NCBI RefSeq assembly: GCF_003258945.1
Contig: NZ_QLIX01000001.1
Location: 372,001-436,000, forward strand
Direction: 5' to 3'
Length of the DNA stretch: 64,000 bases
Source: Roseicella frigidaeris
GTDB lineage: Bacteria; Pseudomonadota; Alphaproteobacteria; Acetobacterales; Acetobacteraceae
Shown: one piece after another, positions 1,719-44,936 of the stretch
Layout: every line of letters begins with the position of its first letter
How positions within the stretch are numbered: the first letter of the stretch is position 1
Program-made: the position numbers and the translations under genes
The notes under the pieces: generated by a model
The model's input: the letters and a program-made list of their open reading frames with translations, nothing else
What the model was told of the DNA's origin: nothing
The model's database searches: none

Positions 1719-1836
1719 GGAGCAGTCTCCGTTCGCCCGCCTTCACGGCGAATGCTCCGGCCTTCCGTTTCCGGAGCGTCTTCGCCCGTTCGCGTGTTGC
1801 CACTCGAGGTGTTTCCACCTCGGGCGATCATGCTCC
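1719..1836 (-). repeat. Composite hairpin repeat, copy 1 (modules B then A, reverse orientation)
   Basis: Bounded by GGAGCA and TGCTCC. Read on the minus strand, module A (1773-1836) starts GAGCATGATC and ends CGAAGACGCTCC; module B (1719-1759) starts GAGCATTCGCC and ends ACTGCTCC. Module A is about 17 bp longer than other copies: its loop region is duplicated, giving a second small stem CGAGGTG-gaaa-CACCTCG. It lies between thrC and the DUF1989 gene, both on the plus strand. It belongs to the family described at 10975, 14138, 23123, 31757 and 44729. Confidence 0.75.
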
Positions 1837-1959
1837 GACCGCCTGCTGCTGCGTTGCAGCGGCGGCGGCGGGACTGGCCCGCCGCGTCGAGGCGCTGGTC
1901 GCGGCGCGGCTGCCCCGCGCCGCCCGCGGCCTGGCGCGGCCACATGCAGGAGCCGAGGC

Positions 1960-2808
1960 ATGAAGGACCATCCCGCCGCCTATCAGGCCAGCCAGGGCGG
2001 TGCCCTCGCCCTCGATGCGGCCTTCTACGACCGCATCGCCGCCGAGACCGCCGGCCGCAGCCTGGTCGAGCAATTCACCATCCCGATCCGCACCGGCCGC
2101 GCCTGGCGGGTGCCGGCCGGGCATGTCTTCCGCATCGTCGCGGTGGAGGGGCCGCAGGTCGGCGACCTCAACCTGTGGAACGCGGAGGACCCGCGCGAGC
2201 GCTTTTGGGCCTCGCGCACCCGGCAGCTCCAGGGCGCGCATGTCAGCACCCATGACCGGTTGTGGTCGACGCTGCCCTTCCTGCGGCCGATGGTGACCAT
2301 CACCGCCGACAGCCTCGCCGGCTACGGCATCGACGAATACGGCGGGCGGGTCCACGACCTGCTCGGCACCCGCTGCGACCCCTATGTGAACCAGATGCTG
2401 AGCGGCGAGAGCTTCGATTTCTGCTGCCACTCCAACCTGACCCGGGCGGTGCTGCCCTTCGGCCTGACCGAGTTCGACGTGCACGACGTGCTGAACGTGT
2501 TCCAGTGCACCGGCCTCAACCAGGACGACCTGTACTTCATGCGGGCGAGCCCGGCGCAGGCGGGCGACTACCTGGAATTCTTCGCCGAGATCGATCTGCT
2601 CTGTGCCCTCTCCACCTGCCCGGGCGGCGATCTCTCGGTGCCGCTCTGGGGGCCGGAGGCGCGCGACCCGCTGGAGGTGTGCCGGCCGCTCGGGGTCGAG
2701 GTGCATCGCCTCGACCCCGCGCTGCTCGCGGGCTGGTCGCCGCCGCGGCGCGCCGCCTATCGCGGCGGCCATGGGCTGCGGCTGGCGCCGCCCCCCTGGG
2801 CGCGCTGA
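1960..2808 (+). CDS. DUF1989 (urea carboxylase-associated) family protein
   Basis: 282 residues. It resembles the DUF1989 family, whose members are annotated as urea carboxylase-associated proteins and are often found near urea amidolyase genes. Supporting features are WRVPAGHVFRIV near residue 50, EGPQVGDLNLWN, the Cys-containing CDPYVNQML stretch, SFDFCCHSNL, VHDVLNVFQCTGL, and a late CALSTCPGGDLS motif that in the family is thought to bind metal through cysteines. No urea carboxylase, allophanate hydrolase or transporter gene is nearby here, so the usual context gives no help and its substrate is unknown. ATG 1960 follows a purine-rich GGAGCCGAGGC stretch. The stop lies 10 bp from the convergent LLM oxidoreductase gene. 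Confidence 0.8.
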   Translation: MKDHPAAYQASQGGALALDAAFYDRIAAETAGRSLVEQFTIPIRTGRAWRVPAGHVFRIVAVEGPQVGDLNLWNAEDPRERFWASRTRQLQGAHVSTHDRLWSTLPFLRPMVTITADSLAGYGIDEYGGRVHDLLGTRCDPYVNQMLSGESFDFCCHSNLTRAVLPFGLTEFDVHDVLNVFQCTGLNQDDLYFMRASPAQAGDYLEFFAEIDLLCALSTCPGGDLSVPLWGPEARDPLEVCRPLGVEVHRLDPALLAGWSPPRRAAYRGGHGLRLAPPPWAR

Positions 2809-2818
2809 GGGCGCCGGC

Positions 2819-3775
2819 TCAGCGCCGCAGCTTCGGCGCGAGGTCGCGCTCGAAGACGGCGATGAACTCCTCCTGCTGCGGCCCGACCTGGGTCAGGATG
2901 ATGTGGTCGAAGCCGGCCTCGACGTATTTCGAGATGCTCTCCAGGTGGCGGTCCGCCGAGGGGCCGCAGCTCACCTGCTGCGCCACCACCTCCGGCGTGA
3001 TGTGGCGCGAGGCCGCCTCGAAGCCGCGCGTCGTCGGCAGCTCCGCCTGCACCGGCCAGCCGGTGACCGACCAGCGGAAGTAGCGATGCGCGGTCTGCTG
3101 CGCCTCGGCCTCGGTCTTTGCCCAGCAGAGCGACACCTCGGCATAGCAGGGGCCGCTGCCGCCGGCCTCGCGGAAGGCCTCGATCAGCTCGCGCTTCGGC
3201 TCGGTCGCCACCAGCCCGTCGCCCTTGCGCCCGGCCAGCCGCGCCGCCTCCGGCCCGCCGGCGGCGACCGCGACCGGCACCTTGCGCTGCGGCCGGTCGT
3301 AGAGCTTCGCCTGGTCGAGGCTGAAATACTGGCCGCGATAGTTGCTGAGCTCGCCCGAGAGCAGGCCCTGGATGATGTCGATGGCCTCCGACAGCCGCTC
3401 GTGCCGCTCGCCGATGCCGGGCCAGCCCTGGCCGGCGACATGCTCGTTCAGCCGCTCGCCGGCGCCGAGGCCGAGGGTGAAGCGGTCGTCGCTCAGCAGC
3501 GCGACGGTCGCCGCGCCCTGGGCGATGATGGCCGGGTGGTAGCGCATGATCGGGCAGGTGACGGCGGTCATCAGCCCGATGCGCGTGGTCGCCTGGGCCA
3601 GCGCCCCGAGCACCGACCAGGCGAGCGGCGCATGCCCCTGCTCCTCGATCCAGGGCGAGAAATGGTCGGAGATGGCGGCGAGGTCGAAGCCGGCCTGCTC
3701 GGCCCGCTGCAGGTTGCGCACGAGGTCCTTCGGCCCGTGCTCCTCGGACATCAGCTTGTAGCCGAAATGGGTCAT
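2819..3775 (-). CDS. F420-type LLM class oxidoreductase (TIGR03557-like)
   Basis: 318 residues with a luciferase-like TIM-barrel monooxygenase fold. The sequence [48 protein letters not shown] and [13 protein letters not shown] matches the subgroup annotated as F420-dependent G6PDH-like LLM enzymes (TIGR03557). This would make it a redox enzyme using deazaflavin F420, although some members use FMN. Substrate unknown. The open frame extends to 3928, but ATG 3773-3775 matches the family start, while the upstream stretch is low-complexity Arg/Pro/Ala. It is divergent from the LigD-like gene across 151 bp. Confidence 0.82.
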
Positions 3776-10116: not shown

Positions 10117-10121
10117 CCGGC

Positions 10122-10693: not shown

Positions 10694-10975
10694 TTGCCTC
10701 GAACCATTTCCGCCGAGTTCGACGTCCGACGCGAGGCCGAGCTGGCCGTGGAACGGCTGGTGCAGGAATACAAGCTCGACCGCTCCGCCGTGACGGTCAC
10801 GACGGTCGGCGAGGACAACACCGCCGGCACGCGGCCCTCGGGCGCCGATCGGGACGATGCGACGGGCGACGAGGCGGCGAGCCCGACCCATGGCCGGATC
10901 CGGGTCTCGGCCACGGTGGACGATGCCGTCGCCGACAAGGCGCAGGCCGCCATGCGGCAGGCGCGGGACGCCTAG
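10694..10975 (+). CDS. Small conserved-looking protein, probable TTG start, 93 residues
   Basis: The protein reads RTISAEFDVRREAELAVERLVQEYKLDRSAVTV, then an acidic, disordered Asp/Ala/Gly/Thr patch, then GRIRVSATVDDAVADKAQAAMRQA. Beta-alpha-beta halves around a flexible linker resemble small soluble alphaproteobacterial proteins of unknown function, related in style to ferredoxin-like stress proteins. GGGAGGA sits 4 bp before TTG 10694. An in-frame ATG at 10679 has no ribosome site, so TTG is preferred. Its TAG stop (10973-10975) directly abuts a hairpin repeat copy. Confidence 0.65.
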   Translation: MPRTISAEFDVRREAELAVERLVQEYKLDRSAVTVTTVGEDNTAGTRPSGADRDDATGDEAASPTHGRIRVSATVDDAVADKAQAAMRQARDA

Positions 10976-11022
10976 GGCAGATCCCGTTCGAGTGGACACC
11001 CGCGAACGGGTGAAGCGGCCTC
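10975..11022 (+). repeat. Composite hairpin repeat, copy 2 (module A only, degenerate)
   Basis: Starts GGGCAGATCCCGTTCGAGTG, has GACA in place of the usual GAAA loop, and ends CGAACGGGTGAAGCGGCCTC. The left arm is intact and the right arm has two changes that weaken the upper stem. It starts at the last base of the stop codon of the 10694 gene and ends 12 bp before the convergent lipid kinase stop. Confidence 0.75.
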
Positions 11023-11033
11023 ACCGACAGGCG

Positions 11034-11939
11034 TCAGGGAGGTGGGATGGCGAGGCCCGCCCGATCCGTCGCCGGGAGCATCACGGCGATCGGCCCCGGC
11101 GCATCCTCGATCGTCACCGGCAGGGTCCCGGCGGGGTCGCCATCCGCCTGCGCCGGCACCGCCTCGCCCCGCAGCAGGATGCGCCGCGCCGGCCGCAGCT
11201 CCACCCCCGGCAGCCGCGGCAGCAGGTCGAGCGGCAGGGCGGCGCCATACAGCGCCGCCCGCAGCGCCCCGCCCCGCCGGAACAGCGCCACCTGGAAGCC
11301 GGCCGCGCCCGGCCGCGCCATCGGCGCCAGCAGGTGCCGCCCGGCATAGAGCCGCCCCTTGCTGACGATGGCGCCCGCCACCTCGACCGGCTCGCCATCC
11401 AGCTCGGCGAGGAAGCGCGGATGCCGGTACCGCGGCAGCTCGCGCAGCGCCTGCAGCACATAGGCGCCGCGGCCGAGCCGCCGCTTCAGCCCGAGATCGA
11501 GTCCCTGCACCACCGCGGCGTCGAAGCCGGCGCCGAGCATCTGCACGAAGAGCCGCTCCCGGCCATCGGCGAAGCGGGCGAGGCCCGGGCGCAGCAGGCG
11601 CGGCCTGCCCTCGGCGAGGATGACGGCGGCGGCATCCGGCCGCAGCGGCAGCCCCAGCTCCCAGGCCAGAACATTGGCAGTGCCGAAGGGCAGGATGCCG
11701 AGCCGCGAGGCGCCGCCGGCGAGGCCGGCCGCCACCTCCGCGATGGTGCCGTCGCCGCCGGCCGCGACGACGAGCGGCGTGCCCGCCGCCGCCGCCGCCC
11801 GCGCCAGCACCGTGGCATGGCCGGGATGCCGGGTCTCGGCCACCTCCGCCGGCAGGCCGGCGCGCGCCAGGGCGGCGAGGGCGCGGACCAGGCGCCGGCG
11901 CCGGCGCGTCCCGGCCGCGGGGTTGAACAGGATGAGCAT
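11034..11939 (-). CDS. Diacylglycerol kinase family lipid kinase (DagK/YegS type)
   Basis: 301 residues. It would phosphorylate a lipid such as diacylglycerol using ATP at the inner membrane. The N terminus MLILFNPAAGTRRRRR and the nucleotide-binding AAGGDGTIAEVA with PFGTANVLAWELGLP are the DAGK catalytic-domain signatures. The rest (LGAGFDAAVV, YVLQALRELPRYRHP, APMARPGAAGFQV) matches the YegS-like C-terminal beta-sandwich. CAT 11937-11939 is the start; the open frame runs to 12080 through a Pro/Arg/Ala-rich stretch that is not family sequence. It is divergent from the envelope gene pair at 12207. Confidence 0.88.
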   Translation of the reverse strand: MLILFNPAAGTRRRRRLVRALAALARAGLPAEVAETRHPGHATVLARAAAAAGTPLVVAAGGDGTIAEVAAGLAGGASRLGILPFGTANVLAWELGLPLRPDAAAVILAEGRPRLLRPGLARFADGRERLFVQMLGAGFDAAVVQGLDLGLKRRLGRGAYVLQALRELPRYRHPRFLAELDGEPVEVAGAIVSKGRLYAGRHLLAPMARPGAAGFQVALFRRGGALRAALYGAALPLDLLPRLPGVELRPARRILLRGEAVPAQADGDPAGTLPVTIEDAPGPIAVMLPATDRAGLAIPPP

Positions 11940-13016: not shown

Positions 13017-13027
13017 CCCGCCGGCCG

Positions 13028-14086: not shown

Positions 14087-14137
14087 GGCGCGACCCGCGC
14101 GAAAAGGCAAAGCGCCAGATCGTGGGATGGTGGCCTG

Positions 14138-14184
14138 GGCGGATTCCGGCCGAGGGGAAGCACGCGAACGGGCAAGGATGCTCC
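14138..14184 (+). repeat. Composite hairpin repeat, copy 3 (module A, degenerate)
   Basis: GGGCGGATTCCGGCCGAGGG, then GAAG as loop, CACGCGAACGGGCAAGGATGC and CTCC. It aligns base for base with module A of the copy at 44729, with about ten changes, and the stem is partly lost. It is the only recognisable element in the 242-bp gap between the glycosyltransferase and the glycine-rich gene. Confidence 0.6.
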
Positions 14185-14328
14185 GCAGGCTGCCTCGGAA
14201 CGGTTCCGGCATGGAGCGCCGCCGCGAGACTGTTCGATCTTTCAATCCTTCCGCGTCGGGCGGAGGATGCCGGCGCGCTTGCGGTGGGGCACGTGGCAGG
14301 CGGTGTGCAAAGCGGAAGGGACGCGGCG

Positions 14329-22909: not shown

Positions 22910-23122
22910 GGAGGTGGGCGGGGCGCGGCCCTCGGGTGACGCCGCGACCGCTTCGCCCGCCACCGATCTGCCGGCCGCAATCCCGACAGGGGCGCCCCGA
23001 TCCCGGCGATGGGGCGTCCCGCCGTCGGTTGTCCGAAGTGGTCGCACGCCGACACGAAGGCGGGCGGGCCTCGGAGCATCGTCGCCCGATCAGGTGATTT
23101 CGCCTGGTCGGGATTTGTTCCA
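22910..23122. other. Intergenic region between the binding protein and a hairpin repeat
   Basis: 213 bp of GC-rich sequence that precedes the repeat at 23123. The whole gap from 22910 to 23222 is 313 bp; only the repeat is recognisable in it. I see no gene or promoter of good match. Confidence 0.4.
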
Positions 23123-23226
23123 GAGCAGATCCCGTCCGGGTGGAAACACTCGGACGGGTGAAGATGCTCTGAAAACAACACGCTGGAGCATTTGCCGCGA
23201 ATGCGGGGGAGCGGACAATGCTCTAG
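23123..23226 (+). repeat. Composite hairpin repeat, copy 4 (module A then B, forward)
   Basis: Module A (23123-23169) starts GAGCAGATCCCGTCCGGGTG, has loop GAAA, and ends CACTCGGACGGGTGAAGATGC with TC. Module B (23186-23226) starts GAGCATTTGCCGC and ends CAATGCTCTAG. The stem uses a different sequence from the other copies but still pairs, with one G-T pair. The final CTAG supplies the stop codon (minus-strand TAG, 23223-23225) of the convergent gene. Confidence 0.88.
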
Positions 23227-30814: not shown

Positions 30815-30857
30815 CCGGCCCGCCGGCCGGCCAGGCGGCGCAGGGCGCGGCGCGGGG

Positions 30858-31756: not shown

Positions 31757-31864
31757 CTAGAGCATGTCCTGCGAACTTCCGTTCACCTGAAATGCTCTAG
31801 GTGGTTGTTTTTACGAGCATCTTCACCTGTCCGGATGAGGTCATCCGGACAGGATCTGCTCTAG
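31757..31864 (-). repeat. Composite hairpin repeat, copy 5 (modules B and A, reverse), inside an ABC exporter operon
   Basis: B (31757-31800) starts CTAGAGCATGTCCTGCGAAC and ends AATGCTCTAG. A (31815-31864) contains the perfect stem CCTGTCCGGATG-aggt-CATCCGGACAGG (31826-31853) between GAGCA and TGCTCTAG. Only five bases in 108 differ from 44829-44936. The CTAG (31861-31864) forms the permease stop codon. Confidence 0.9.
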
Positions 31865-35486: not shown

Positions 35487-37616
35487 ATGACTGCCGTTGC
35501 CGCGCCGGCCAGTGCCGGTTTCGCATCCCTCGATGCGCTGGTGCGGCCCCGCTCCGTCGCCGTGATCGGCGCCTCCGACGAGCCGGCGCGGATCGGCGGC
35601 CGCCCCATCGCCTACATGAAGGAGCGCGGCTTCGCCGGTGAACTCTGGCCGGTGAACCCGAAGCGGCAGACCGTGCAGGGCCTGCCGGCCTTCGCCTCGG
35701 TCGAGGCGCTGCCGGCCGCGCCGGACGTCGCCATCATCGCCGTGCCGGCCGAGCACGCCATCGCCACCCTCGATTCGCTCGGCCGCAAGGGCTGTCGCGC
35801 CGTCATCGTCTTCTCCGCCGGCTTCGCCGAGATGGACGAGGCCGGCGCCGCGGCGCAGGAGCGGCTGACCGCCGTCGCCCGCTCCCACGGCATCCGCCTG
35901 CTCGGCCCCAATTGCCTCGGCGTCTTCAACGACAGCATCCGCTTCTACGGCACCTTCACCGCGAGCTTCGAGAAGGGCTGGCCGATCCCCGGGCGGATCG
36001 GCGTCGTCTCGCAATCCGGCGCCTATGGCACGCATGTCTTCTCGGCGGCGCTCGACCGCGGCCTCGGCATGCAGGTCTGCATCACCACCGGCAACGAGGC
36101 CGAGGTCGCGCTCGGCGACGCGCTCGGCTGGATGGCGCAGGCGCCCGAGGTGGACGTGATCTGCGCCTATGCCGAGGGGATCCGCGAGAGCGAGCGCTTC
36201 ATCGCGGCGCTGGAGCTGGCGCGGCGCAACCGCAAGCCGATCGTGATGATGAAGGTCGGCCGCAGTCAGCTCGGCGGCGCTGCGGCCAAGTCGCACACCG
36301 CTTCCATCGCCGGCGACGACACCGTCACCCAGGCGGTGCTCGACGAGTTCGGCGTGGTGCGGGCGCGGACGACGGAGGAGATGCTCGACATCGCCTATGT
36401 CGCGGCGAAGCGCATCTACCCGGCGCGCAACACGCTCGGCGTGCTCACCGTCTCGGGCGGCGCCGGCGTGCTGATCTCGGATGCCGCCGAGCAGGTGGGG
36501 CTCGAGATGCCGCCGATGCCGGAGGCGGCGCAGGAGCGGCTGCGCGGCTTGGTGCCCTTCTGCGCCCCGCGCAACCCGGTGGACTGCACCGCGCAGGTGA
36601 CCAACAACCTGCCGCTGATCGGCCAGTTCGCCGAGAGCGTGGCGACGGATGGCGGCTACACCTCCATCCTCTCCTTCTGGTCGCAGACCGCGGCCGGGCG
36701 CAGCGTCGGCCCCAGCCTGCGGCAGCAGATGCAGGCGGTGCGGGCGGCGCATCCGGACCGGCTCTGGGTGATGTCCATGCTCGCGCCCGACAAGGTGCGC
36801 GACTACGAGGCGGATGGCTGGGTCTGCTTCGAGGACCCCTCGCGGGCGGTGAACGCCATCGCCGCCATGGGGCATTACGGCGCCGCCTTCGCCGCCGCCG
36901 GGGAGACGCGCCCCGCCGTGCCGCTGCCGCAGGTGACGCTGCCCGAGACCACGCCCTCCGAGGCGGCGGCCAAGGCGCTGCTCGCCACGGCGGGCGTGCC
37001 GGCGGTGCCGGAGGCGGCCTGCCCGGAGGCCGAGGCGGCGGTCGCCGCGGCGGAGCGCTTCGGCTATCCGGTGGTGCTCAAGATCCTCTCGCCCGACATC
37101 CTGCACAAGAGCGAGATCGGCGGCGTGCTGCTCGATGTCGGCGATGCCGGCGCGGTGCGGCAGGGCTTCGCCACGCTGCTGGAGCGCGCCCGGCAGCACG
37201 CCCCGACGGCGCGGATCGAGGGCGTGCTGGTCGCCAAGCAGATCAAGGGCGCGGTGGAGATGGCGCTCGGCATGTTCCGCGACCCGGTCTTCGGCCCGGT
37301 GGCGATGGTCGGCCTGGGCGGCATCTTCATCGAGGTGCTGAAGGACGTCTCCTTCCGCCGCTGCCCCTTCGACACGGCGGAGGCGGAGCGGATGATCCGC
37401 TCGCTGAAGGGCTTCCCGCTGCTGGACGGCGCGCGCGGGCGGCCGAAGGCGGATCTGCCGGCGCTGGCCAAGGCGCTCTCGGCGCTCTCCGCCTTCGCCG
37501 CGGCGGCCGGGCCGCGCCTCGCCGGCATCGACGTCAATCCGATGCTGGTGCTGCCGGCGGGCGAGGGCTGCTACGCCGCCGATGCCGTCATCGAGTTGGA
37601 AGGGGGGAGCCACTGA
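35487..37616 (+). CDS. ADP-forming acetate/acyl-CoA ligase family protein
   Basis: 709 residues. The N-terminal CoA-binding Rossmann domain (LDALVRPRSVAVIGASDEPARIGGRPIAYMK) is followed by the succinyl-CoA-synthetase-like domain (GRIGVVSQSGAYGTHV, MKVGRSQLGGAAAKSHTASIAGDD with the candidate phosphohistidine H in KSHTAS) and a C-terminal ATP-grasp domain (FGYPVVLKILSPDILHKSEIGGVLLDVGD, PMLVLPAGEGC). It makes acyl-CoA with ADP, or runs in reverse to make ATP. Bacterial relatives act on acetate, citryl-, pimeloyl- and other acids, so the substrate is uncertain. The next gene starts 1 bp after its stop; both form one unit. Confidence 0.88.
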   Translation: MTAVAAPASAGFASLDALVRPRSVAVIGASDEPARIGGRPIAYMKERGFAGELWPVNPKRQTVQGLPAFASVEALPAAPDVAIIAVPAEHAIATLDSLGRKGCRAVIVFSAGFAEMDEAGAAAQERLTAVARSHGIRLLGPNCLGVFNDSIRFYGTFTASFEKGWPIPGRIGVVSQSGAYGTHVFSAALDRGLGMQVCITTGNEAEVALGDALGWMAQAPEVDVICAYAEGIRESERFIAALELARRNRKPIVMMKVGRSQLGGAAAKSHTASIAGDDTVTQAVLDEFGVVRARTTEEMLDIAYVAAKRIYPARNTLGVLTVSGGAGVLISDAAEQVGLEMPPMPEAAQERLRGLVPFCAPRNPVDCTAQVTNNLPLIGQFAESVATDGGYTSILSFWSQTAAGRSVGPSLRQQMQAVRAAHPDRLWVMSMLAPDKVRDYEADGWVCFEDPSRAVNAIAAMGHYGAAFAAAGETRPAVPLPQVTLPETTPSEAAAKALLATAGVPAVPEAACPEAEAAVAAAERFGYPVVLKILSPDILHKSEIGGVLLDVGDAGAVRQGFATLLERARQHAPTARIEGVLVAKQIKGAVEMALGMFRDPVFGPVAMVGLGGIFIEVLKDVSFRRCPFDTAEAERMIRSLKGFPLLDGARGRPKADLPALAKALSALSAFAAAAGPRLAGIDVNPMLVLPAGEGCYAADAVIELEGGSH

Positions 37617-37617
37617 G

Positions 37618-38475
37618 ATGGCCATCGTCTACGAGATGCTGCTGAATTACCCGATCCCGGAGGTGCGGCAGGTGCTGCGCTGGCAGGATGTGGCGCTGTA
37701 CAATTTCTCCATCGGGCTCGGCCAGGACCCGATGGACGAGAAGCAGCTCGACTTCCTCTACGAGCCGCGGCTGAAGGTGATGCCCTCCATGCCGGTGGTG
37801 CTCGCCTCGCCCGGCTTCTGGTCGCGCAACCCGGATACCGGCATCGTCTGGCAGCAGATCCTGCATGGCGAGCAGGGGCTGATCCTGCACAAGCCGCTGC
37901 CGACCGAGGGCGAGGTGATCGGCCGCTCGCGCATCACCGGCCTGGTCGATCGCGGCGAGGGCAAGGGCGCGCTGATGTATTCCGAGCGCGAGATCGTCGA
38001 TGCGAAGACCGGCGAGGTGCTGGCGACCAGCACCTCCACCAGCTTCATGCGCGGCAATGGCGGCTTCGGCGGGCCGAGCGGCCCGGTGAAGAAGCCGCAT
38101 CCCGAGCCGGAGCGGGCGCCGGATGTCACGCTCGATCTGGCGACGCGGCCGGAACAGGCGCTGGTCTACCGGCTGAACGCCGACCTGAACCCGCTGCATA
38201 TCGACCCGGCCGTGGCGAAGCAGGCCGGCTTCCCGCAGCCGATCCTGCACGGGCTCTGCACCTTCGGCACCGTCTGCCATGGCCTGCTGCGCAGCCTCTG
38301 CGACTACGACACGGCGCGCTTCGGGCGGATGGATCTCCGCTTCTCCTCGCCGGTCTTCCCGGGCGAGACGATCCGCACCGAGATCTGGAAGGAGGAGGGC
38401 GGCGCCGCCTTCCGCGCCCGCGTCGTCGAGCGCGACAAGGTGGTGGTCAGCAACGGGCTGTTCCGCTACGCATGA
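37618..38475 (+). CDS. MaoC/HotDog domain protein (acyl-CoA dehydratase or hydratase-like)
   Basis: 285 residues with two hot-dog halves. The first half contains LYNFSIGLGQDPMDEKQLDFLYEPRLKVMPSMPVVLASPGFW; the second has the MaoC active block NADLNPLHIDPAVAKQAGFPQPILHGLCTFG (R)-hydratase motif with catalytic Asp and His. Related to peroxisomal 2-enoyl-CoA hydratase 2 (MFE-2 type), and probably adds or removes water from an enoyl-CoA. It follows the acyl-CoA ligase by 1 bp, so the pair likely works on one acyl-CoA substrate (inference). Confidence 0.87.
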   Translation: MAIVYEMLLNYPIPEVRQVLRWQDVALYNFSIGLGQDPMDEKQLDFLYEPRLKVMPSMPVVLASPGFWSRNPDTGIVWQQILHGEQGLILHKPLPTEGEVIGRSRITGLVDRGEGKGALMYSEREIVDAKTGEVLATSTSTSFMRGNGGFGGPSGPVKKPHPEPERAPDVTLDLATRPEQALVYRLNADLNPLHIDPAVAKQAGFPQPILHGLCTFGTVCHGLLRSLCDYDTARFGRMDLRFSSPVFPGETIRTEIWKEEGGAAFRARVVERDKVVVSNGLFRYA

Positions 38476-38748
38476 CGCCGCTGGCCGTTGATGGCGACCC
38501 ATCAACGGCCCCCGCGGACGCCGGGCGGTTTGCTCCGCAAACTTGGCTTCGCCGCATTGGCGGCGGCGCCGCTTCGGGCGCTCGGCAGGACCATGGCGGT
38601 CATGCCGTTGGTATGATGCCCCGGTGAAGTCCCTTCGGGGGCTGAGGCGCGTCACGGCCTGTCGCGGCGAAGCCCGCGCCAGGGCAACGGGCGGCGACAG
38701 CATCACCGGGCGTCGGAGCTGACGGCGGCTTCGGACAAGGACAAGCGC
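38476..38748 (+). repeat. Repeat-rich intergenic region including second-family copy
   Basis: GGCCGTTGATGG and CCATCAACGGCC (about 38483-38511) form a stem after the MaoC gene. TTCGGGCGCTCGG (38573-38585) matches 20078. GCCGTTGGTAT (38605-38615) recurs at 25308 and 60405. 38645-38695 matches the minus-strand sequence of 26101-26164. It lies ahead of the exonuclease gene. Confidence 0.65.
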
Positions 38749-39330
38749 ATGTGGATGGGTGGGCCGGTCGTCGTCTTCGATACCGAGACCACCGGGGCCG
38801 GGGCGGGCGACCGCGTGGTCTCGCTCGGCGCCGTGCGGCTGGACGCGGCGCTGGAGCCGGAGGCGACGCTGCATCTCGCCTTCGCCCCCGGCATCCGCTG
38901 CCATTGGGGCGCCATCCGCGTGCATGGCATGTCGGACGCCTTCCTGGCGCGGCACCCGCCCTTCGCCGCGCATGCCGAGGAGATCGCCGGCTTCTTCGCC
39001 GGCTGCGCCGCGGCGGCGCACAACCTGCCCTTCGACCGGCGCATGCTGGGCGGCGAATTCGCCCGGCTCGACCGGCCCCTGCCTTGGGCCGAGGCGCATT
39101 GCACCCTGGCGCTTTGGCGCCGGGCGCGTCCCGGCCAGCGCGCCGGCCTCGCCCAGGCCGCCGCCGCCTGCGGCCTGGCGCGCGAGGGCGCCCTGCACGG
39201 CGCGCTCGAGGATGCCTGGCTGGCGGCGCAATTGCTGCGGACGCTGCACGGGTTGCCGCCGGTGCCGATGCGCCTGCATGGCATCACCAACGGCCCCGCG
39301 GAGGGCCTGTCGGAGGAGATCGCCGCATGA
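38749..39330 (+). CDS. DnaQ-like 3'-5' exonuclease domain protein
   Basis: 193 residues of the RNase H-fold DEDD exonuclease type. VVVFDTETTGAG (DxE motif 1), GIRVHGMSDAFLARHPPF, AAAAHNLPFDRRML (HNxxFD, motif 2) and HGALEDAWLAAQLLRTL (HxAxxDA, motif 3, DEDDh type) are complete. It could proofread or trim DNA or RNA; polymerase III context is absent. It overlaps the next gene by ATGA. ATG 38749 is used; the upstream second-family repeat is 49 bp away. Confidence 0.88.
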   Translation: MWMGGPVVVFDTETTGAGAGDRVVSLGAVRLDAALEPEATLHLAFAPGIRCHWGAIRVHGMSDAFLARHPPFAAHAEEIAGFFAGCAAAAHNLPFDRRMLGGEFARLDRPLPWAEAHCTLALWRRARPGQRAGLAQAAAACGLAREGALHGALEDAWLAAQLLRTLHGLPPVPMRLHGITNGPAEGLSEEIAA

Positions 39331-40160
39331 CCGCCCCCGCCGATGCCGCCGCCCGCGCCGAGCGCTTCGTCGCGCTGCACCAGTCGGGCTGCTTCGCCCT
39401 GCCCAATGCCTGGGATGCCGGCAGCGCCCGGCTGCTCGCCGGGCTCGGCCCGGTGGCGCTGGCCAGCACCTCGGCCGGCGCCGCCTGGACGCTCGGCCGG
39501 CAGGACGGCGCCCTCAGCCGCGCCGAGGCGATCGCCAATGCCGCGGCGATCCTCGCCGAGACCAGCCTGCCGGTCTCGGCCGATCTCGAGGACGGCTTCG
39601 GCCCCGCGCCCGACGATTGCGCCGCCACCGTGCGGGCGGCGGCCGAGGCCGGGCTCGCCGGCTGCACCATCGAGGACACGACGCGCGACCCGGCGGCGCC
39701 GATCCATGGCTTCGAGGCGGCGCTGGCGCGGGTGCGGGCGGCCGTCGCCGCGGCGCGCGGCCTCGGCCGGCCCTTCGTGCTGACGGCGCGGACGGAGAAT
39801 TTCCTGCACGGCCGCCCGGATCTGGAGGACACGATCCGCCGCCTCACCGCCTTCGCCGAGGCGGGGGCGGATTGTCTCTACGCGCCGGCGCTGCCCGATC
39901 TCGAGGCCATTCGCCGCGTCGTCTTGGCCGTCGCGCCGAAGCCGGTGAACGTGCTGCTCGGCCCGCGCGCCGGGCTGCTGCCGATGGGCGAGCTGGCCGC
40001 GGCCGGGGTGCGGCGGGTGAGCGTCGGCGGGGCGCTGGCGCGGGCGGCCTATGGCGCGGCGCTGGAGATGGGCCGGGCCCTGGTCGCGGGCGAGCTGCCG
40101 CGCCTGGCCGCCATCCCGCCGCATGCGGCGGTGAACGGCCCGATGCGCCCACCCGGCTGA
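39327..40160 (+). CDS. Isocitrate lyase/PEP mutase family protein
   Basis: 277 residues of the PEP mutase/isocitrate lyase superfamily (COG2513). It starts with RAERFVALHQSGCFALPNAWDAGSARLLA, then SADLEDGFG (metal-binding), AGCTIEDTTRD, LTARTENFLHGRPDLEDTIRRLTAFAEAGADCLYAPAL and VNVLLGPRAGLLPMGELAAAGVRRVSVGGAL. Substrate could be a 2-methylisocitrate-like or phosphonate compound; it lacks a KKCGH signature, so it is not a true isocitrate lyase. The ATG overlaps the exonuclease stop. The CoA-transferase genes start 72 bp later. Confidence 0.86.
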   Translation: MTAPADAAARAERFVALHQSGCFALPNAWDAGSARLLAGLGPVALASTSAGAAWTLGRQDGALSRAEAIANAAAILAETSLPVSADLEDGFGPAPDDCAATVRAAAEAGLAGCTIEDTTRDPAAPIHGFEAALARVRAAVAAARGLGRPFVLTARTENFLHGRPDLEDTIRRLTAFAEAGADCLYAPALPDLEAIRRVVLAVAPKPVNVLLGPRAGLLPMGELAAAGVRRVSVGGALARAAYGAALEMGRALVAGELPRLAAIPPHAAVNGPMRPPG

Positions 40161-40232
40161 GGCGCGGCGCGCGGGGGGCTGGACCCCGGGGGCGCCCCGG
40201 TCTACCTGATCCCCCGGTCCGGGAGGGGTTGG

Positions 40233-40928
40233 ATGATCAACAAGATCGTGCAGTCGGTGGCCGAGGCGCTGGCCGGCGTGAAGGATGGATCGACGGTCCT
40301 GATCGGCGGCTTCGGCAGCGTCGGGCAGCCGGACGTGCTGATCGAAGGGCTGATCGAGCAGGGCGCGAAGGACCTCGTCGCCGTGCTGAACAATGCCGGC
40401 GTCGGCCGCATCGGCGTGGCACGGCTGATGGAGCTGGGCCGGGTCCGCAAGATCATCTGCTCCTTCCCCCGCTCCTCCGACCCGGTGGTGTTCGAGACCC
40501 TCTACCGCGAGGGCCGGATCGAGCTCGAGATCACGCCGCAGGGCACGCTGGCCGAGCGCATCCGCGCCGCCGGCGCCGGCATCCCGGCCTTCTACACCGC
40601 GACCGCGGCGGGCACGCTGCTGGAGCGGGGCAAGGAGGTGCGCGAGTTCGACGGCAAGCGCTATGTCATGGAGCGCGCCCTGCCCGGCGATGTCGCGCTG
40701 ATCGAGGCCTGGGAAGCGGATCGCTGGGGCAACCTCGTCTACCGGGGCTCGGGCGCGAATTTCAACCCGGTGATGGCCATGGCGGCGACGCTGACCGTCG
40801 CCCAGGTGCAGCACATCCGCGAGCTCGGCGCGTTGCATCCGCACATGATCATGACGCCGGGCGTCTATGTGAACCGCGTGGTCCAGGTGGATCGCGGCGG
40901 CGACTGGGTGACGCCCGAGCAGGCCTGA
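40233..40928 (+). CDS. 3-oxoacid/3-oxoadipate CoA-transferase subunit A
   Basis: 231 residues. Subunit A (alpha) of a class I CoA-transferase that moves CoA from succinyl-CoA or acetyl-CoA to a keto acid such as 3-oxoadipate or acetoacetate. MINKIVQSVAEALAGVKDGSTVLIGGFGSVGQPDVLI is the typical N terminus, followed by NNAGVGRIGVARLMELGRVRKIICSFP, EITPQGTLAERIRAAGAGIPAFYTATAAGTLLERGKEVREFDGKRYVMERALPGDVALIEAWEAD. Closest by eye to PcaI, but the downstream acyl-CoA genes leave the substrate open. Subunit B follows 39 bp later. Confidence 0.93.
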   Translation: MINKIVQSVAEALAGVKDGSTVLIGGFGSVGQPDVLIEGLIEQGAKDLVAVLNNAGVGRIGVARLMELGRVRKIICSFPRSSDPVVFETLYREGRIELEITPQGTLAERIRAAGAGIPAFYTATAAGTLLERGKEVREFDGKRYVMERALPGDVALIEAWEADRWGNLVYRGSGANFNPVMAMAATLTVAQVQHIRELGALHPHMIMTPGVYVNRVVQVDRGGDWVTPEQA

Positions 40929-40967
40929 CCGGGCCGAGTTGAGCGAGCAGAGGAGGAGAGGAAGCCC

Positions 40968-41603
40968 ATGCCCTTCACCCGCGACCAGATGGCCGCCCGC
41001 CTCGCCACCGACGTGCCGGAAGGATGGTGCGTCAATCTCGGCATCGGCATCCCGACCCTGGTGGCGAACCACGTGCAGGGCAAGGAGGTGATCTTCCAGT
41101 CCGAGAACGGCGTCATCGGCATGGGGCCGGCGCCGGCGAAGGGCCATGAGGATCCCTGGCTGATCAATGCCGGCAAGCAGCTCGTCACCCTGGCGAAGGG
41201 CGCGAGCTTCGTCGGCCATGCCGACAGCTTCGCCATGATCCGTGGCGGCCATATCGATCTCTGCGTCCTCGGCGCCTTCGAGGTGGCGGAGAATGGCGAC
41301 CTGGCGAATTGGGCGACGAGCGAGAACGACACCGCCCCGGCGGTCGGCGGCGCCATGGACCTCGCGGCCGGCGCCAAGCGGCTCTGGGTGGTGATGGAGC
41401 ACACCACCAAGGACGGGCGGCCGAAGCTGGTCGAGCGCTGCGGCTACCCGCTGACCGGCCTCGCCTGCGTCCGCCGCGTCTACACCAACCTCGCGGTGAT
41501 CGACGTGCTGCCCGAGAAGGGCTTCATGCTGGTCGATCTCGCGCCCGGCGTGACGCTGGACGAGCTGCGCGCCAAGAGCGGCGCGGCGATCCACGCCAAC
41601 TGA
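40968..41603 (+). CDS. 3-oxoacid/3-oxoadipate CoA-transferase subunit B
   Basis: 211 residues. Subunit B (beta) supplies the catalytic glutamate, E46 in FQSENGVIGMGPAP. NLGIGIPTLVANHVQGKEV and HADSFAMIRGGHIDLCVLGAFEVAENGDLANW are conserved, as are KLVERCGYPLTGLACVRRVYTNLAVIDV. It pairs with the preceding subunit. Located 64 bp before the first acyl-CoA dehydrogenase on the same strand, it is likely part of a single degradative transcription unit. AGGAGGAGAGG lies just before ATG 40968. Confidence 0.95.
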   Translation: MPFTRDQMAARLATDVPEGWCVNLGIGIPTLVANHVQGKEVIFQSENGVIGMGPAPAKGHEDPWLINAGKQLVTLAKGASFVGHADSFAMIRGGHIDLCVLGAFEVAENGDLANWATSENDTAPAVGGAMDLAAGAKRLWVVMEHTTKDGRPKLVERCGYPLTGLACVRRVYTNLAVIDVLPEKGFMLVDLAPGVTLDELRAKSGAAIHAN

Positions 41604-41667
41604 ACCCCCGCATCCCGGGGGGCCGGGAGCCCCGCATTCCGGGAGCCCGCAGTCTGGGAGAGTCTCC

Positions 41668-42741
41668 ATGAGCGCCGCCGAAGCGGATGACCGCGCCGAA
41701 TCCATCCGCATGATCCGCGACAGCGCCGCGGCCGTGGTTCCGCCCGATGGCGACCTGAAGCGGATCCGGGCGCTGCGCTTCCAGGAACCCGGCTTCGACC
41801 CGGCCATGCTGCGCCAGATGGGCGAGATGGGCTGGATCGGGCTGCGGGTGCCGGAGGCGCTGGGCGGCGCCGGGCTCGGCCTCGGCGAGATGTGCGCGCT
41901 CGCCGAGGAGCTGGGCCGCGGCCTGGCGCCGGAGCCGCTGATCCAGGCGGCGCTCTCGGCGCAGCTTCTCGCCGCCGCCGGCGGCAAGGGCGCGCTGGCG
42001 AAGCTGCTCTCCGGCGAGGCGCTGCTGCTGACCGCCTGGCAGGAGCGGGCCGATACGCTGGAGGCGCCGGGCACGCCGGAGGCGACGCGGCTCTTCCTGC
42101 CCATGGCGGGGGGCGCCACCGGCTTCCTGCTGCCGGCGCGGATCGGCGACCGCCTCGCCCTGCACGAGGTGCCGGCCTCGGCGGTGCGGCTGGAGACCGC
42201 GCCGACCCAGGATGGCGGCTTCCTCGGCACCATCACGCCGCCGCGCGACCTCGGCACGCCGCTCGCCACGGATATCGGCCCGGCGCTGACGGAGGCGCTG
42301 GACGAAGCGGCGCTGGTGACCGCCGCCTATCTGCTCGGCGGCATGGAGCGGGCCTTCGCCATGACGCTCGACTACCTCCGCACCCGGCAGCAATTCGGCC
42401 GCATCATCGGCACCTTCCAGGCGCTGCAGCACCGCGCCGCCGACCTGAAGATGCAGGTGGCGCTGACCCGCGCCAGCATCGAGGCGGCGGCCGCGGCGCT
42501 CGATGCCGGGGTCCGCGGCGATGCCCGCCGCGCCGCCGTCTCCCGCGCCAAGGCGCGGGCGGCGGAGGCCAGCCTGCTGGTGACGCGCCAGAGCATCCAG
42601 CTGCATGGCGGCATCGGCTACACCGACGACTACGATGTCGGCCTGTTCCTGCGGAAGGCGATGGTGCTGGCCAACCAGTTCGGCAGCGCCGCCCTGCATC
42701 GCCGCCGCTTCATGGCGGTGAGCCCGGAGGTCGAGGCATGA
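41668..42741 (+). CDS. Acyl-CoA dehydrogenase family protein (short form)
   Basis: 357 residues. FAD-dependent desaturase of acyl-CoA, feeding electrons to ETF. The N-terminal helical domain has EPGFDPAMLRQMGEMGWIGLRVPEALGGAGLGLGEMCALAEELGR. The middle is short and variable. The C-terminal domain holds DYLRTRQQFGRIIGTFQALQHRAADLKM and QSIQLHGGIGYTDDYDVGLFLRKA, where FGRI and the Gly-rich HGG(I/M)GYT motif are standard. The candidate catalytic base, usually a Glu in the C-terminal GxxE or YEG segment, is not obvious. It overlaps the next gene by ATGA. Together with the second dehydrogenase it resembles heterodimeric ACAD pairs (inference). Confidence 0.87.
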   Translation: MSAAEADDRAESIRMIRDSAAAVVPPDGDLKRIRALRFQEPGFDPAMLRQMGEMGWIGLRVPEALGGAGLGLGEMCALAEELGRGLAPEPLIQAALSAQLLAAAGGKGALAKLLSGEALLLTAWQERADTLEAPGTPEATRLFLPMAGGATGFLLPARIGDRLALHEVPASAVRLETAPTQDGGFLGTITPPRDLGTPLATDIGPALTEALDEAALVTAAYLLGGMERAFAMTLDYLRTRQQFGRIIGTFQALQHRAADLKMQVALTRASIEAAAAALDAGVRGDARRAAVSRAKARAAEASLLVTRQSIQLHGGIGYTDDYDVGLFLRKAMVLANQFGSAALHRRRFMAVSPEVEA

Positions 42742-43514
42742 GCGCGCCCTCGGCCCTGCGGCTGATCGAGGAGCGGGACGGCGCCGTCCTCATCCTCACC
42801 ATCGACCAGCCGGCGCGGCGCAACGCCCTCGCCATGCCGATCCGCACCGCCATGATCTCGGCGCTGGAGCGGGCGCAGTCGGATGCGGCGATCCGCGCCG
42901 TGGTCGTCACCGGCGCCGGCGGGCATTTCTGCTCGGGCGGCGACATCTCCGGCATGGATGTGGAGAGCGCGCTGGCGGGGCGGGAGCGCATGCGGCTCTC
43001 GCACCAGCTCATCCGCCTGATGGTGCTCGGCAGCCTGCCGGTAGTGGCGGCGGTGGAGGGGTATTGCGTCGGCGCCGGCCTGTCGCTCGCCTGCGCCTCG
43101 GATACCGTGGTGGCGGCCGAGGATGCGCGCTTCGCCGCGGGCTTCGGCAAGATCGGGCTGATGGCCGATCTCGGCCTGCCGCATACCCTGCCGCTGCGCG
43201 TCGGCCAGGGGCGGGCGCGGCAGATCCTGTTCTACCACGGCCAGATGACGGCGCCGGAGGCGGAGCGCATCGGCATCGTCGATGCGGTGGTGCCGAAGGG
43301 CCATGCGCTGGCGACGGCGCTGGAGAAGGCGCGCTTCCTCGCCGAGCAGGCGCCGGCGCCGATGGCGCTGACCAAGCAGATGCTGGGCGAGGGGCTGGAC
43401 CGGGCGCTGGAGCAGGAGCGGCATTTCCAGTCCACCCTGTTCCTGACCGAGGATTTCAAGGAAGGCCGCGCCGCCTTCCTCGGCAAGCGCGCACCGCAAT
43501 TCAAGGGAGCCTGA
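42738..43514 (+). CDS. Enoyl-CoA hydratase/isomerase family protein
   Basis: 258 residues of the crotonase fold. It hydrates or isomerises an enoyl-CoA. ILTIDQPARRNALAMPIRTAMISALERAQ, VVVTGAGGHFCSGGDISGM (oxyanion GG), and the second oxyanion and catalytic region VEGYCVGAGLSLACASDTVVAAEDARFAAGFGKIGLMADLGLPHTLPLRVGQGRARQIL. EARFA is a typical isomerase/hydratase block. ATG 42738 overlaps the preceding stop. The stop is 1 bp from the second dehydrogenase start, so all three genes are translationally coupled. Confidence 0.93.
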   Translation: MSAPSALRLIEERDGAVLILTIDQPARRNALAMPIRTAMISALERAQSDAAIRAVVVTGAGGHFCSGGDISGMDVESALAGRERMRLSHQLIRLMVLGSLPVVAAVEGYCVGAGLSLACASDTVVAAEDARFAAGFGKIGLMADLGLPHTLPLRVGQGRARQILFYHGQMTAPEAERIGIVDAVVPKGHALATALEKARFLAEQAPAPMALTKQMLGEGLDRALEQERHFQSTLFLTEDFKEGRAAFLGKRAPQFKGA

Positions 43515-43515
43515 G

Positions 43516-44685
43516 ATGGACGCCATCCGCATCCCGCCGCCCGCCGAGCTCGACGGGCTGGAGGACGAGCATTTCCGCCAGGTGGTCCGCGCCTTCCTGC
43601 ACGCCAACTACCCCGAGGCGCTGCGCAACCCGCCGAAGCGCCTGCACTGGGCCGAGAACAAGGCCTGGTACATGACGCTGGCCGAGAAGGGCTGGCTCTG
43701 CCCCGGCTGGCCGAAGGAATATGGCGGCCTCGGCCTCTCGCCCTCGAAGCAGATCATCCTGACCGAGGAATACGAGCGCCACGGCGTCGCCCGCACCAAC
43801 GACCACGGCATCGTCATGCTGGGCCCGCTGGTGATCAAATACGGCACCGAGGCGCAGAAGCAGCGCTTCCTGCCGAAGATCCTGACCGGCGAGCATATCT
43901 GGTGCCAGGGCTATTCCGAGCCGAATGCCGGCTCCGACCTCGCGGCGCTGCGCACCGAGGCGGTGCTGGACGGCGACCACTACGTGGTCAACGGCCAGAA
44001 GATCTGGACCACCCTGGCGATGGACGCCAACTGGATCTTCCTGCTGGTCCGCACCGACAAGACTGCGAAGAAGCAGGAGGGCATCTCCTTCCTCCTCGTG
44101 GACATGAACACGCCCGGCATCACCGTGCGGCCGATCATCAACCTCGAGATGCATGACGAGTTCTGCGAGACCTTCTTCGACAATGTCCGCGTGCCGAAGG
44201 AGAACCTGGTCGGCCAGCTCAACAAGGGCTGGGACATGGCCAAGGCGCTGCTCGGCTTCGAGCGGATCTTCCTCGGCTCGCCGCGGCAATCGGGCTATGC
44301 GCTGTCGCGGCTGAAGATCCTGGCCGAGCGCATGGGCGTCTGGGAGGAGGCCGGCTTCCAGGACCAGTATGCGCGGCTGCGGCTGGAATTCGAGGATCTG
44401 AAGGCGCTCTACGGCACCTTCGTGGACCGGCTGAAGCGCGGCCAGTCCCTCGGCCCGGATGTCTCCATGCTGAAGATCATCCAGACCGAGCTGTTCCAGA
44501 AGATCACCGACACCATGCTGGAGATCGCCGGCGAGAATGCCGGGCTGCTGGAGCCGCTGGACGGCAACCGCGACCTCAATATCGGCGGCCTCTACATCCA
44601 GGCGCGGCCGGCGACGATCTATGGCGGCTCCAACGAGATCCAGCGGAACATCCTGAGCAAGAACGTCCTCGAACTGCCGGGCTGA
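43516..44685 (+). CDS. Acyl-CoA dehydrogenase family protein
   Basis: 389 residues, full-length ACAD. WLCPGWPKEYGGLGLSPSKQIILTEEYERHGVARTNDHGIVMLGPLVIKYGTEAQKQRFLPKILTGEHIWCQGYSEPNAGSDLAALRTEA has the FAD-binding block. QKIWTTLAMDANWIFLLVRTD, VGQLNKGWDMAKALLGFER and the C-terminal YGGSNEIQRNILSKNVLELPG (with the NEIQR motif). Closest to the FadE/AidB-type long group often found with PaaF-like hydratases. It ends the catabolic run; a large hairpin repeat region starts 44 bp after its stop. Confidence 0.94.
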   Translation: MDAIRIPPPAELDGLEDEHFRQVVRAFLHANYPEALRNPPKRLHWAENKAWYMTLAEKGWLCPGWPKEYGGLGLSPSKQIILTEEYERHGVARTNDHGIVMLGPLVIKYGTEAQKQRFLPKILTGEHIWCQGYSEPNAGSDLAALRTEAVLDGDHYVVNGQKIWTTLAMDANWIFLLVRTDKTAKKQEGISFLLVDMNTPGITVRPIINLEMHDEFCETFFDNVRVPKENLVGQLNKGWDMAKALLGFERIFLGSPRQSGYALSRLKILAERMGVWEEAGFQDQYARLRLEFEDLKALYGTFVDRLKRGQSLGPDVSMLKIIQTELFQKITDTMLEIAGENAGLLEPLDGNRDLNIGGLYIQARPATIYGGSNEIQRNILSKNVLELPG

Positions 44686-44728
44686 CCGGGCCATGGTCCG
44701 CGAACCCGGGTGAGCGGATCGTGGTCTG

Positions 44729-44936
44729 GAGCAGATCCCGTTCGAGTGGAAACACTCGAACGGGTGAAGATGCTCCGAAAACAGGAGCCCAGGGCGCTTC
44801 CTGTGAACCGGTGTTCACGGGAAGCGCCCTAGAGTATGTCCTGCGAACTTCCGTTCACCTGCAATGCTCTAGGTATTTGTCTTTACGAGCATCTTCACCT
44901 GTCCGGATGAGGTCATCCGGACAGGATCTGCTCTAG
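44729..44936 (+). repeat. Composite hairpin repeat, copy 6 (A, B-like, B-reverse, A-reverse), 208 bp
   Basis: A forward (44729-44775) with perfect stem CCCGTTCGAGTG-gaaa-CACTCGAACGGG (44737-44764). A strong 17-bp hairpin (44792-44829, GGGCGCTTCCTGTGAAC paired to GTTCACGGGAAGCGCCC with one T-G pair). Then B reverse (44829-44872) and A reverse (44887-44936, stem CCTGTCCGGATG-aggt-CATCCGGACAGG). It fills the gap between convergent operons, and its CTAG forms the cysA stop codon. It could act as a bidirectional terminator. Confidence 0.9.

Follow-up and report, generated by a model that had tools for sequence, protein, structure and literature searches.

What is the hairpin that recurs in a 64,000-nt stretch of Roseicella frigidaeris DNA (the window), and how did it come to be there? 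An initial annotation had described six sites at which a hairpin with fixed ends (GAGCA ... TGCTC) returns with stems of different sequence. The evidence below indicates that the repeat is probably a MITE of the CIR/RIME type (CIR, Caulobacter/CcrM-associated intergenic repeats, as given in the excerpt of PMC2229807), whose mobiliser we only infer.

A two-hairpin unit with CTAG-like ends

The stems, the fixed ends and the GAAA loops are present where the initial annotation had placed them, and the hairpin it described is only half of the repeat. The whole unit is 108 nt long and is formed by hairpin A (GAGCAGATC...GTGAAGATGCTC), an A-rich linker and hairpin B, with CTAG-like ends. A covariance model of 108 positions (R1, whose E-values are rough) recognised four full copies in the window, all at E <= 1.4e-21, together with weaker ones. 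Genes in the following list are gene calls.

31757..31864, minus strand: full element (A hairpin, linker, B hairpin), R1 107.5 bits, E 2.9e-25; its CTAG at 31861-31864 includes the TAG stop of the minus-strand gene 31861-32712
44726..44832, plus strand: full element, R1 102.3 bits; A stem CCCGTTCGAGTG/CACTCGAACGGG with GAAA loop; hairpin B of the GGGCGCTT type
44829..44936, minus strand: full element, R1 98.1 bits; CTAG 44829-44832 in common with the element 44726..44832; outer CTAG containing the TAG stop of the minus-strand gene 44933-46030
23120..23226, plus strand: full element, R1 93.1 bits; A stem CCCGTCCGGGTG/CACTCGGACGGG with GAAA loop; right end falling on the stop (TAG) of gene 23223-23801 on the minus strand
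23070..23123, minus strand: degenerate copy of A only, abutting the element 23120..23226, R1 31.1 bits, E 9.3e-6; sequence read by eye
10972..11075, plus strand: degenerate copy, R1 30.8 bits, E 1.1e-5; left end falling on the stop (TAG) of gene 10694-10975 on the plus strand
1717..1822, minus strand: degenerate copy, R1 33.3 bits, E 2.6e-6; downstream of the plus-strand gene 295-1701, whose stop is TGA
14130..14191, plus strand: doubtful A-like remnant, with 65% ungapped identity to the 23116 copy only

Two of the three degenerate copies proposed earlier, at 1773 and 10975, are R1 matches; the third, at 14138, lies below the reach of R1 at E 0.05 in the window and is known from ungapped identity only. 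The degenerate copy at 23070-23123 comes in addition to the earlier list. Among 41 distinct full copies, obtained through a search pattern that itself restricts length, the unit measures 105-109 nt, and most of the 150 listed R1 matches in the R. frigidaeris genome span 105-108 nt. Some copies stand in tandem or inverted arrays.

Copy number, spread and pairing of the stems

Searches of the R. frigidaeris genome and its relatives with a covariance model, which the initial annotation had proposed as a check, returned many further copies with covarying stems. The family extends well beyond six sites: the R. frigidaeris genome holds at least 150 copies by the covariance model, and the exact feet GAGCAGATC-N20..45-GTGAAGATGCTC occur 67 times there against none for the pattern read backwards. 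Model matches were found in 51 of 385 alphaproteobacterial genomes. Exact-feet matches occur in 33 of 200 genomes, 31 being the safer count because the lone 66-nt matches in G192 and G088 look like coding chance. Several genera of Acetobacteraceae have these elements, and 49 of the sampled alphaproteobacterial genomes, all from outside the Acetobacteraceae, carry them in variant form. Copies of the two-hairpin architecture are also carried by Shinella and Rhizobium plasmids. A phage search gave one partial match, and S. meliloti pSymB one weak model match (84 nt, E 1.1e-5) with another at E 0.44. A search pattern modelled on rhizobial repeats, which was too strict, matched nothing in the 385 genomes.

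Structure is kept more than sequence, as the initial annotation had supposed: the stems vary on both sides and still pair more often than in shuffles. In 107 distinct 47-mers, drawn from 64 R. frigidaeris places and 111 others before deduplication (3 of the 67 exact-feet copies, of other spacing, being omitted), 95.6% of the cells in the stem alignment are paired, compared with 79.2% when the 3' letters are shuffled (maximum of 200 shuffles, 80.5%). A cross-genus set of 27 sequences chosen from 41 gave 93.7% against 83.9%, and 109 two-sided cells against 33.5 in shuffles; one of the five covariation measures for this set, further pair types, was not above shuffles (38 against 35.3, with 71 of 500 as high). 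When 67 R. frigidaeris matches were picked by the model and not by the feet pattern, two-sided changes were seen in 28 of 35 pairs (216 cells against 66.7). Hairpin B pairs in 89.0% of cells despite a sequence that is for the most part 40-79% conserved. In hairpin A, conservation across the 67 matches reaches at least 90% at the unpaired GAT and at five of the six positions of TGAAGA. The 3' arm of this hairpin has a net excess of 2-4 nt in 25 of 29 distant relatives, and of exactly 3 in 17, all 29 having been found by a model that has this asymmetry. The minimum-energy fold consists of two hairpins in 26 of the 29. By eye, hairpin A of the Acetobacteraceae resembles a kink-turn, and two G-A pairs could flank its extra bases.

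Placement at TAG stops and a candidate mover

The initial annotation had not seen the link of the repeat to TAG stops. Among the 150 listed R. frigidaeris copies, 68 (about 45%) end exactly on the TAG stop of a neighbouring gene, as do 42 of 100 copies in database records of other genomes; none of the former and one of the latter lie inside called genes. CTAG is found at both ends in 41 of the 150 and at one end in at least 47 more, a tally resting on the 12 commonest end pairs (98 copies). The neighbours of 132 classed arrays are convergent in 56 cases, codirectional in 64 and divergent in 12, compared with 16, 95 and 47 for 158 element-free gaps of at least 60 nt. These placement counts, and the count of CTAG in genes given below, depend on a home-made gene caller, retrained per genus group for the database records. 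In a frame test that is independent of the caller, 19 TAG ends out of 49 terminate an open frame of at least 150 codons, against 3 and 7 in the two other frames. CTAG itself is scarce, with 321 occurrences observed and 1177 expected in 484,579 bases; 92 of them lie outside elements, of which 9 are in genes. An element targeting CTAG would thus be steered to gene ends, and the G with which it begins (C-TA-G) would preserve the stop codon when it inserts. The exact placement at TAG stops suggests a small mobile element landing where it does little harm.

Evidence for movement, likewise independent of the gene caller, was given by the sister genome G024, which lacks the element 31757-31864 and reads GGCATGG-CTAG-ACCCAG, with a single CTAG, at this site. 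It also lacks the adjoining 165 nt (31592-31756), another repeat, so that the empty site is not clean. It is the only one found; at 44726-44936 and 23120 the sisters are too divergent for a junction to be read. Neoroseomonas alba has an element with 96% identity to R. frigidaeris copies, and its flanks are unlike the loci of those copies. Since near-identical copies occur in different genera, mobility is needed in any case.

We propose that a transposase inserting at the TA within CTAG would act on the element in trans and move it. With CTAG nearly absent from genes, insertions would fall on TAG stops and intergenic DNA, and insertion at C-TA-G would leave the stop codon intact. An IS630-family transposase, a family present in the R. 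frigidaeris genome, is suggested as the likeliest mover. Six IS630 elements with TA-flanked terminal repeats starting GAGC were found. Among 25 IS630 loci, 8 have a TA-flanked pair matching at no fewer than 10 of 14 positions, whereas the other 17, some of them truncated at contig ends, have none; all five pairs of at least 11 of 14 start GAGC. The plasmid IS630 loci, five in number, are more diverse: the Bradyrhizobium locus has a clear GAGC pair flanked by TA, that of Shinella a weak CTAGAG pair and that of Sinorhizobium a perfect terminal repeat of other sequence (CACCCGCGCACAGG..), while one of the remaining two has a weak pair of unrelated sequence and the other none. Locus L304 has GAGCATGCTGTGTTT repeats and flanks without TA.

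Among 42 elements outside the R. frigidaeris genome, 12 have a right end with at least 10 nt in common with a GAGC-type IS630 repeat; shuffled right ends match over at least 9 nt in a mean of 0.48 and a maximum of 4 of 42 (300 shuffles). Within R. frigidaeris, only 4 of 109 right ends share 9 nt or more, and 68, mostly starting GGGC, share 1 nt. No left end shares at least 9 nt (0 of 42 outside, 0 of 109 within), the usual match being 5-6 nt. The presence of IS630 (PF13358) does not track that of the elements and lends no support to an IS630 mover: it was found in 23 of 30 genomes that carry elements and in 26 of 30 that do not (sampled from 33 with a match and 167 without, leaving out G192, G088 and G000), and no PF13358 match was obtained in G168, which has 15 exact-feet copies.

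Competing explanations and known repeat families

The hairpins might instead have been selected at mRNA 3' ends, as a cis-acting RNA or bidirectional terminator that stops transcription or protects transcripts, with copies being retained on that account. The covariation seen in the cross-genus and R. frigidaeris sets, the location at stop codons and between convergent genes and the conserved unpaired positions of hairpin A all speak for such a role, and the A end lies at the stop in 43 cases against 27 in R. frigidaeris (binomial p 0.07) and in 32 against 14 in other genomes (p 0.01). Transcriptional activity is reported for 26 REP elements and 16 repeats of S. meliloti in the excerpt of PMC2873474. 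However, both orientations are common, 12 of the 150 listed R. frigidaeris copies lie between divergent genes, and the near-identical copies in different genera require mobility anyway. The element 31757-31864 contains one of the three terminator-like sites of 30500-46000, but such sites are there at chance level (3 against 3.1 in shuffles). No Rfam family exceeds its gathering score at the element sites: in the window only a fluoride riboswitch does, elsewhere, and the six matches obtained at six loci at E 5 include none over gathering score and none with E < 1. We regard an RNA role as an unlikely explanation of the family, though a serious contender; the hairpins may also act in RNA at mRNA 3' ends in addition to being mobile.

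A DDE-type mover alone does not account for the covariation of both hairpins. Template switching within inverted repeats could keep the stems perfect by mutation, with no need of structural selection, and the pairing of hairpin B despite its variable sequence fits such self-correction. Hairpin A fits it poorly, as the mismatched GAT and TGAAGA, which correction should erase, are kept, and so is the 3'-arm excess in the model-found relatives. This explanation seems to us slightly less credible than the RNA one. An improbable further reading takes hairpin A for a conserved recognition structure: novel machinery, acting on the element as a folded single strand of DNA or RNA, would move or keep it and bring it to CTAG stops in many Alphaproteobacteria; the likeness to IS630 would then be secondary. 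Integron attC sites were set aside after inspection by eye.

The likeness to REP/BIME elements drawn by the initial annotation was not supported. RAYT-driven movement of a REP/BIME or REPIN element would explain short palindromic intergenic repeats, some of them in tandem or inverted arrays, but this origin is highly improbable. It does not fit because the R. frigidaeris genome has no Y1 (RAYT/IS200) transposase match: PF01797 gave none in this draft (98.5% complete), while control matches were obtained in 5 of 14 known genomes. The length and ends of the unit are unlike those of the GTAG/CGTC REPs in the excerpt of PMC3733652, which also reports CGTC REPs as missing from Acetobacteraceae. Intergenic palindromes and arrays are common to REP/BIME/REPIN and this family; a 108-nt two-hairpin unit ending in CTAG differs from a tagged REP of 20-40 bp.

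If the repeat is indeed a CIR/RIME-type MITE, the single CTAG of the empty site, the exact TAG overlap and the IS630-like right ends together make a testable proposal for CIR mobility. They would also provide a simple rule for repeats at gene ends: genes hardly contain the target word, and insertion leaves the stop intact. A single architecture would then link repeats from acetic acid bacteria, Roseomonas-like genera, rhizobia and further alphaproteobacteria as members of the family.

RIME1 and RIME2 of the Rhizobiaceae (Osteras 1995) are reportedly elements of 108 and 109 bp, RIME1 having two large palindromes and, it is said, chvI-chvG copies. Set beside RIME1 by this description, our 108-nt unit with its two large palindromes is similar, whereas its model matches extend across the class and RIME elements are said to be limited to Rhizobiaceae. 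CIR were reportedly first described by Chen and Shapiro in 2003. The likeness to palindromic repeats of other alphaproteobacteria, also drawn by the initial annotation, is borne out here, as the architecture is that of CIR in the excerpt of PMC2229807: about 110 bp, two long inverted-repeat arms with a linker, TA termini and intergenic location. That excerpt leaves the mechanism of CIR mobility open, and our comparison with CIR1-4 is one of architecture. It places GANTC at or in a terminal loop; here GANTC is in the A loop of 43 of 111 full R. frigidaeris copies and 40 of 111 copies of L060-L171, with 42 of 49 R. frigidaeris occurrences at one position, and in the loop zone of 15 of 29 distant relatives. 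Counted anywhere in the element, it is little above shuffles (46 of 111 against 35.7), and the four full window copies differ from CIR in having GAAA or ACCT loops and no GANTC there. The CTAG/stop-codon placement and the IS630-like right ends are absent from the CIR description in this excerpt (PMC2229807). The same excerpt describes RUP of Streptococcus pneumoniae, a 107-bp intergenic element with a TA target and an IS630 transposase as proposed mover; compared by description (PMC2229807), RUP lacks any stated two-arm design with a linker, and shares with our element the size, the intergenic location and, as proposed here, the TA target; our element may work like RUP.

Architecture and structural conservation of the element

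The hairpin with fixed ends that the initial annotation had singled out as module A is present as described, but it is not the whole: a 108-nt unit has it as its left half. With A placed first, the order is CTA-GAGCAGATC-(stem, 4-nt loop, stem)-GTGAAGATGCTC, then an A-rich linker of about 14 nt (e.g. GTAAAAACAATAAA) and hairpin B, and both termini are CTAG-like words. The 41 distinct full copies from the R. frigidaeris genome and its relatives measure 105-109 nt, mostly 108, a range bounded by the pattern that collected them.

The stems covary, as the initial annotation suggested. In 67 matches from 63 R. frigidaeris loci, selected only with R1 (a 108-position covariance model of the element) and aligned by fitting to the structure, 28 of the 35 pairs carry two-sided changes. 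Two-sided cells number 216 against 66.7 in shuffled alignments, and none of the shuffles attains any of the five covariation measures. The unpaired GAT and five of the six TGAAGA positions are conserved at 90% or more in these matches, and sequence conservation of hairpin B lies mostly at 40-79%. A cross-genus set of 27 sequences was picked for diversity from 41 selected for constant feet and right ends, which makes invariance uninformative in it. Here 93.7% of cells are paired versus 83.9% after shuffling, with two-sided changes in 18 of 35 pairs (12.5 shuffled) and in 109 cells (33.5 shuffled); sliding the partners by 1-3 columns drops pairing to 31-38%. Further pair types are not above shuffles in this set (38 versus 35.3; 71 of 500 shuffles as high). 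Among 29 distant relatives found with R1, several have longer and quite different stems. In 25 of them the first hairpin shows an excess of 2-4 unpaired bases on its 3' arm over its 5' arm (exactly 3 in 17), and 4 lack this feature, a count that leans towards the excess because R1 is itself asymmetric in this way.

Copy number and spread

The 5.82-Mb draft genome (87 contigs) holds many further copies. Of 2326 first-look candidates 150 were scored with R1, so the total of 150 hits with E up to 0.1 (149 with E up to 3.4e-6) is a minimum. Exact feet, a fixed-sequence pattern around hairpin A, match 67 times, versus 0 for the reversed control pattern. A neighbour at least 95% identical exists for 31 of 119 copies, pointing to recent spread. 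Within the Acetobacteraceae, exact feet occur in 33 of 200 genomes and 25 of 102 genera, the match in 2 of the 33 resembling coding chance; carriers among the matches listed (102 stretches) include Neoroseomonas, Roseomonas, Komagataeibacter, Gluconacetobacter and Acidisoma. In Neoroseomonas alba, one element shares 96% identity with R. frigidaeris copies, and its flanks do not resemble the R. frigidaeris loci of those copies. At E 0.01, with 10 candidates scored per genome, R1 hits at least 51 of 385 alphaproteobacterial genomes, 49 of them from other families and two being R. frigidaeris and one member of its family. The two-hairpin element also occurs on rhizobial plasmids (Shinella/Rhizobium/Agrobacterium; loci L225 and L227). 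Matches to the Shinella copy are present in 108 records and cover 80% or more of its length in 74.

Placement at TAG stops and at CTAG

With genes called by a caller trained on this window, none of 150 R. frigidaeris copies lies in a gene interior, and in 68 the TAG at the element end is the stop codon of a neighbour (the left-hand gene in 28 cases and the right-hand gene in 42, including 2 with both). Merging into 141 arrays leaves 67 with such an end. Among 100 copies from genome_contigs records, which include Paracraurococcus ruber of the host genus and some metagenome bins (after exclusion of a further 5 at the edge of a record or locus), 42 have a TAG-stop end and 1 is inside a called gene. 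In distant relatives, 19 of 49 TAG ends close a frame of at least 150 codons; the two alternative frames give 3 and 7. Convergent neighbours are commoner at elements: arrays, classed by their first copy and with 9 edge arrays excluded, have 56 convergent, 64 codirectional and 12 divergent flanks, versus 16, 95 and 47 for element-free gaps of at least 60 nt. Six window copies match over most of R1; a TAG stop lies at one end of four (10972, 23120, 31757, 44829), 44726 shares a CTAG with 44829, and the sixth, 1717, has no end on a TAG stop. In the sister genome G024, an element stands directly at the TAG stop of a gene whose R. frigidaeris copy ends in TGA. Open-licence papers, covered mostly by titles and abstract beginnings, yielded none on stop-codon placement of such repeats, and in the portion consulted of a MITE review (PMC10969869) none of the terms stop codon, CTAG, IS630 and RIME comes up.

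In 484,579 bases around copies, CTAG occurs 321 times against 1177 expected from base composition, counts that describe loci chosen around elements, not the whole genome. Elements contain or abut 229; the remaining 92 comprise 62 intergenic, 21 at stops and 9 within genes. Since CTAG is seldom found within genes, an element requiring it would be sent to stops and intergenic DNA. At the 31757-31864 site, G024 lacks the element and reads GGCATGG-CTAG-ACCCAG; CTAG likewise precedes the same bases in the sister genome G112, and a third sister, G166, has CAG there. This empty site is not clean, because G024 is also missing a second dispersed repeat, the 165 nt at 31592-31756 next to the element. 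At 23120 and 44726-44936 the sister genomes are too divergent for the junctions to be read. Movement of the element into CTAG is supported.

Other features were noted in the window. The last part of the repeat at 31592-31756 extends to the CTAG common with the element, and this repeat has many partial 77-85% matches in G024 (query 3654-3764). The element pair within 44685-44971 lies at a synteny break, its flanks on different contigs in all three sisters. Another repeat, at 38475-38618, starts near an inverted CCGTTGATGG/CCATCAACGG motif and is matched in part at many places in G112 and at some in G024; in G024 a similar motif also stands after the end of the gene at the place syntenic with 44681. 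The following were also located:

52727-52804, plus strand: fluoride riboswitch, 54.9 bits
24432-25146: in-register repeats of 153 nt, inside the minus-strand gene 23892-25154
14385-14621: two 105-nt copies, 95% identical, 132 nt start to start, within the called gene 14329-15573

Candidate movers and comparison with known repeats

Repeats of the REP/RAYT type are moved by a Y1 transposase, and the R. frigidaeris genome has no Y1 transposase match. It has six matches to IS630-type transposases (PF13358), five over the cut-off. TA-flanked inverted ends pair at 11/14 or better in 5 of 25 IS630 loci, all five starting GAGC, and 17 of the 25 gave no pair. A Bradyrhizobium IS630 copy carries GAGCATGATG; a Sinorhizobium IS630 has other repeats. 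Outside R. frigidaeris, 12 of 42 elements have a right end that agrees with TA-flanked IS630 repeats of the GAGC type for 10-11 nt, and 0 of 42 have such a left end; within it, 4 of 109 right ends and 0 of 109 left ends match. IS630 presence does not track the element (23 of 30 genomes with elements versus 26 of 30 without), and one Acetobacteraceae genome has 15 copies and no PF13358 hit. IS630 is only suggested as the mover. IS5-type elements use the CTAG ends of 108-nt elements too. An IS5-family-like element (PF13340; locus L311 972-1792, G000:C1 317.2 kb) with repeats GGGTCTGTTGAGATTT begins at the CTAG ending the 108-nt element C1:317116-317227. Given that the empty site is not clean, we consider it reasonably probable that the repeat is a CIR/RIME-type MITE moving into CTAG by a mover that we infer.

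RIME1 measures 108 bp and contains two large palindromes, a description that our repeat fits. Papers on S. meliloti mention RIMEs, in passages that give no sequence (PMC2573895, PMC2245857, PMC2873474). CIR repeats, known from Caulobacter and further alphaproteobacteria, are described, in the text consulted, as intergenic units of about 110 bp with two inverted repeats forming two arms and a linker, GANTC at a terminal loop and TA termini, their mobility mechanism being left open (PMC2229807). The 108-nt element shares the two-arm architecture, the termini and the intergenic placement. For GANTC the picture is mixed. It occurs in the A loop of 43 of 111 R. frigidaeris copies, where its position is almost constant, and 15 of 29 distant relatives have it in the loop zone, but none of the four full copies in the window has it in a loop, and its presence anywhere in the element barely exceeds shuffles (46 of 111 against 35.7). 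Lichenicola cladoniae belongs to the Acetobacteraceae. The part consulted of a report on this species counts 1,369 REPs (PMC12306157), some of which may belong to the 108-nt family. On the literature covered, the 108-nt repeat, provisionally filed as a CIR/RIME-type element, would be new for the Acetobacteraceae.
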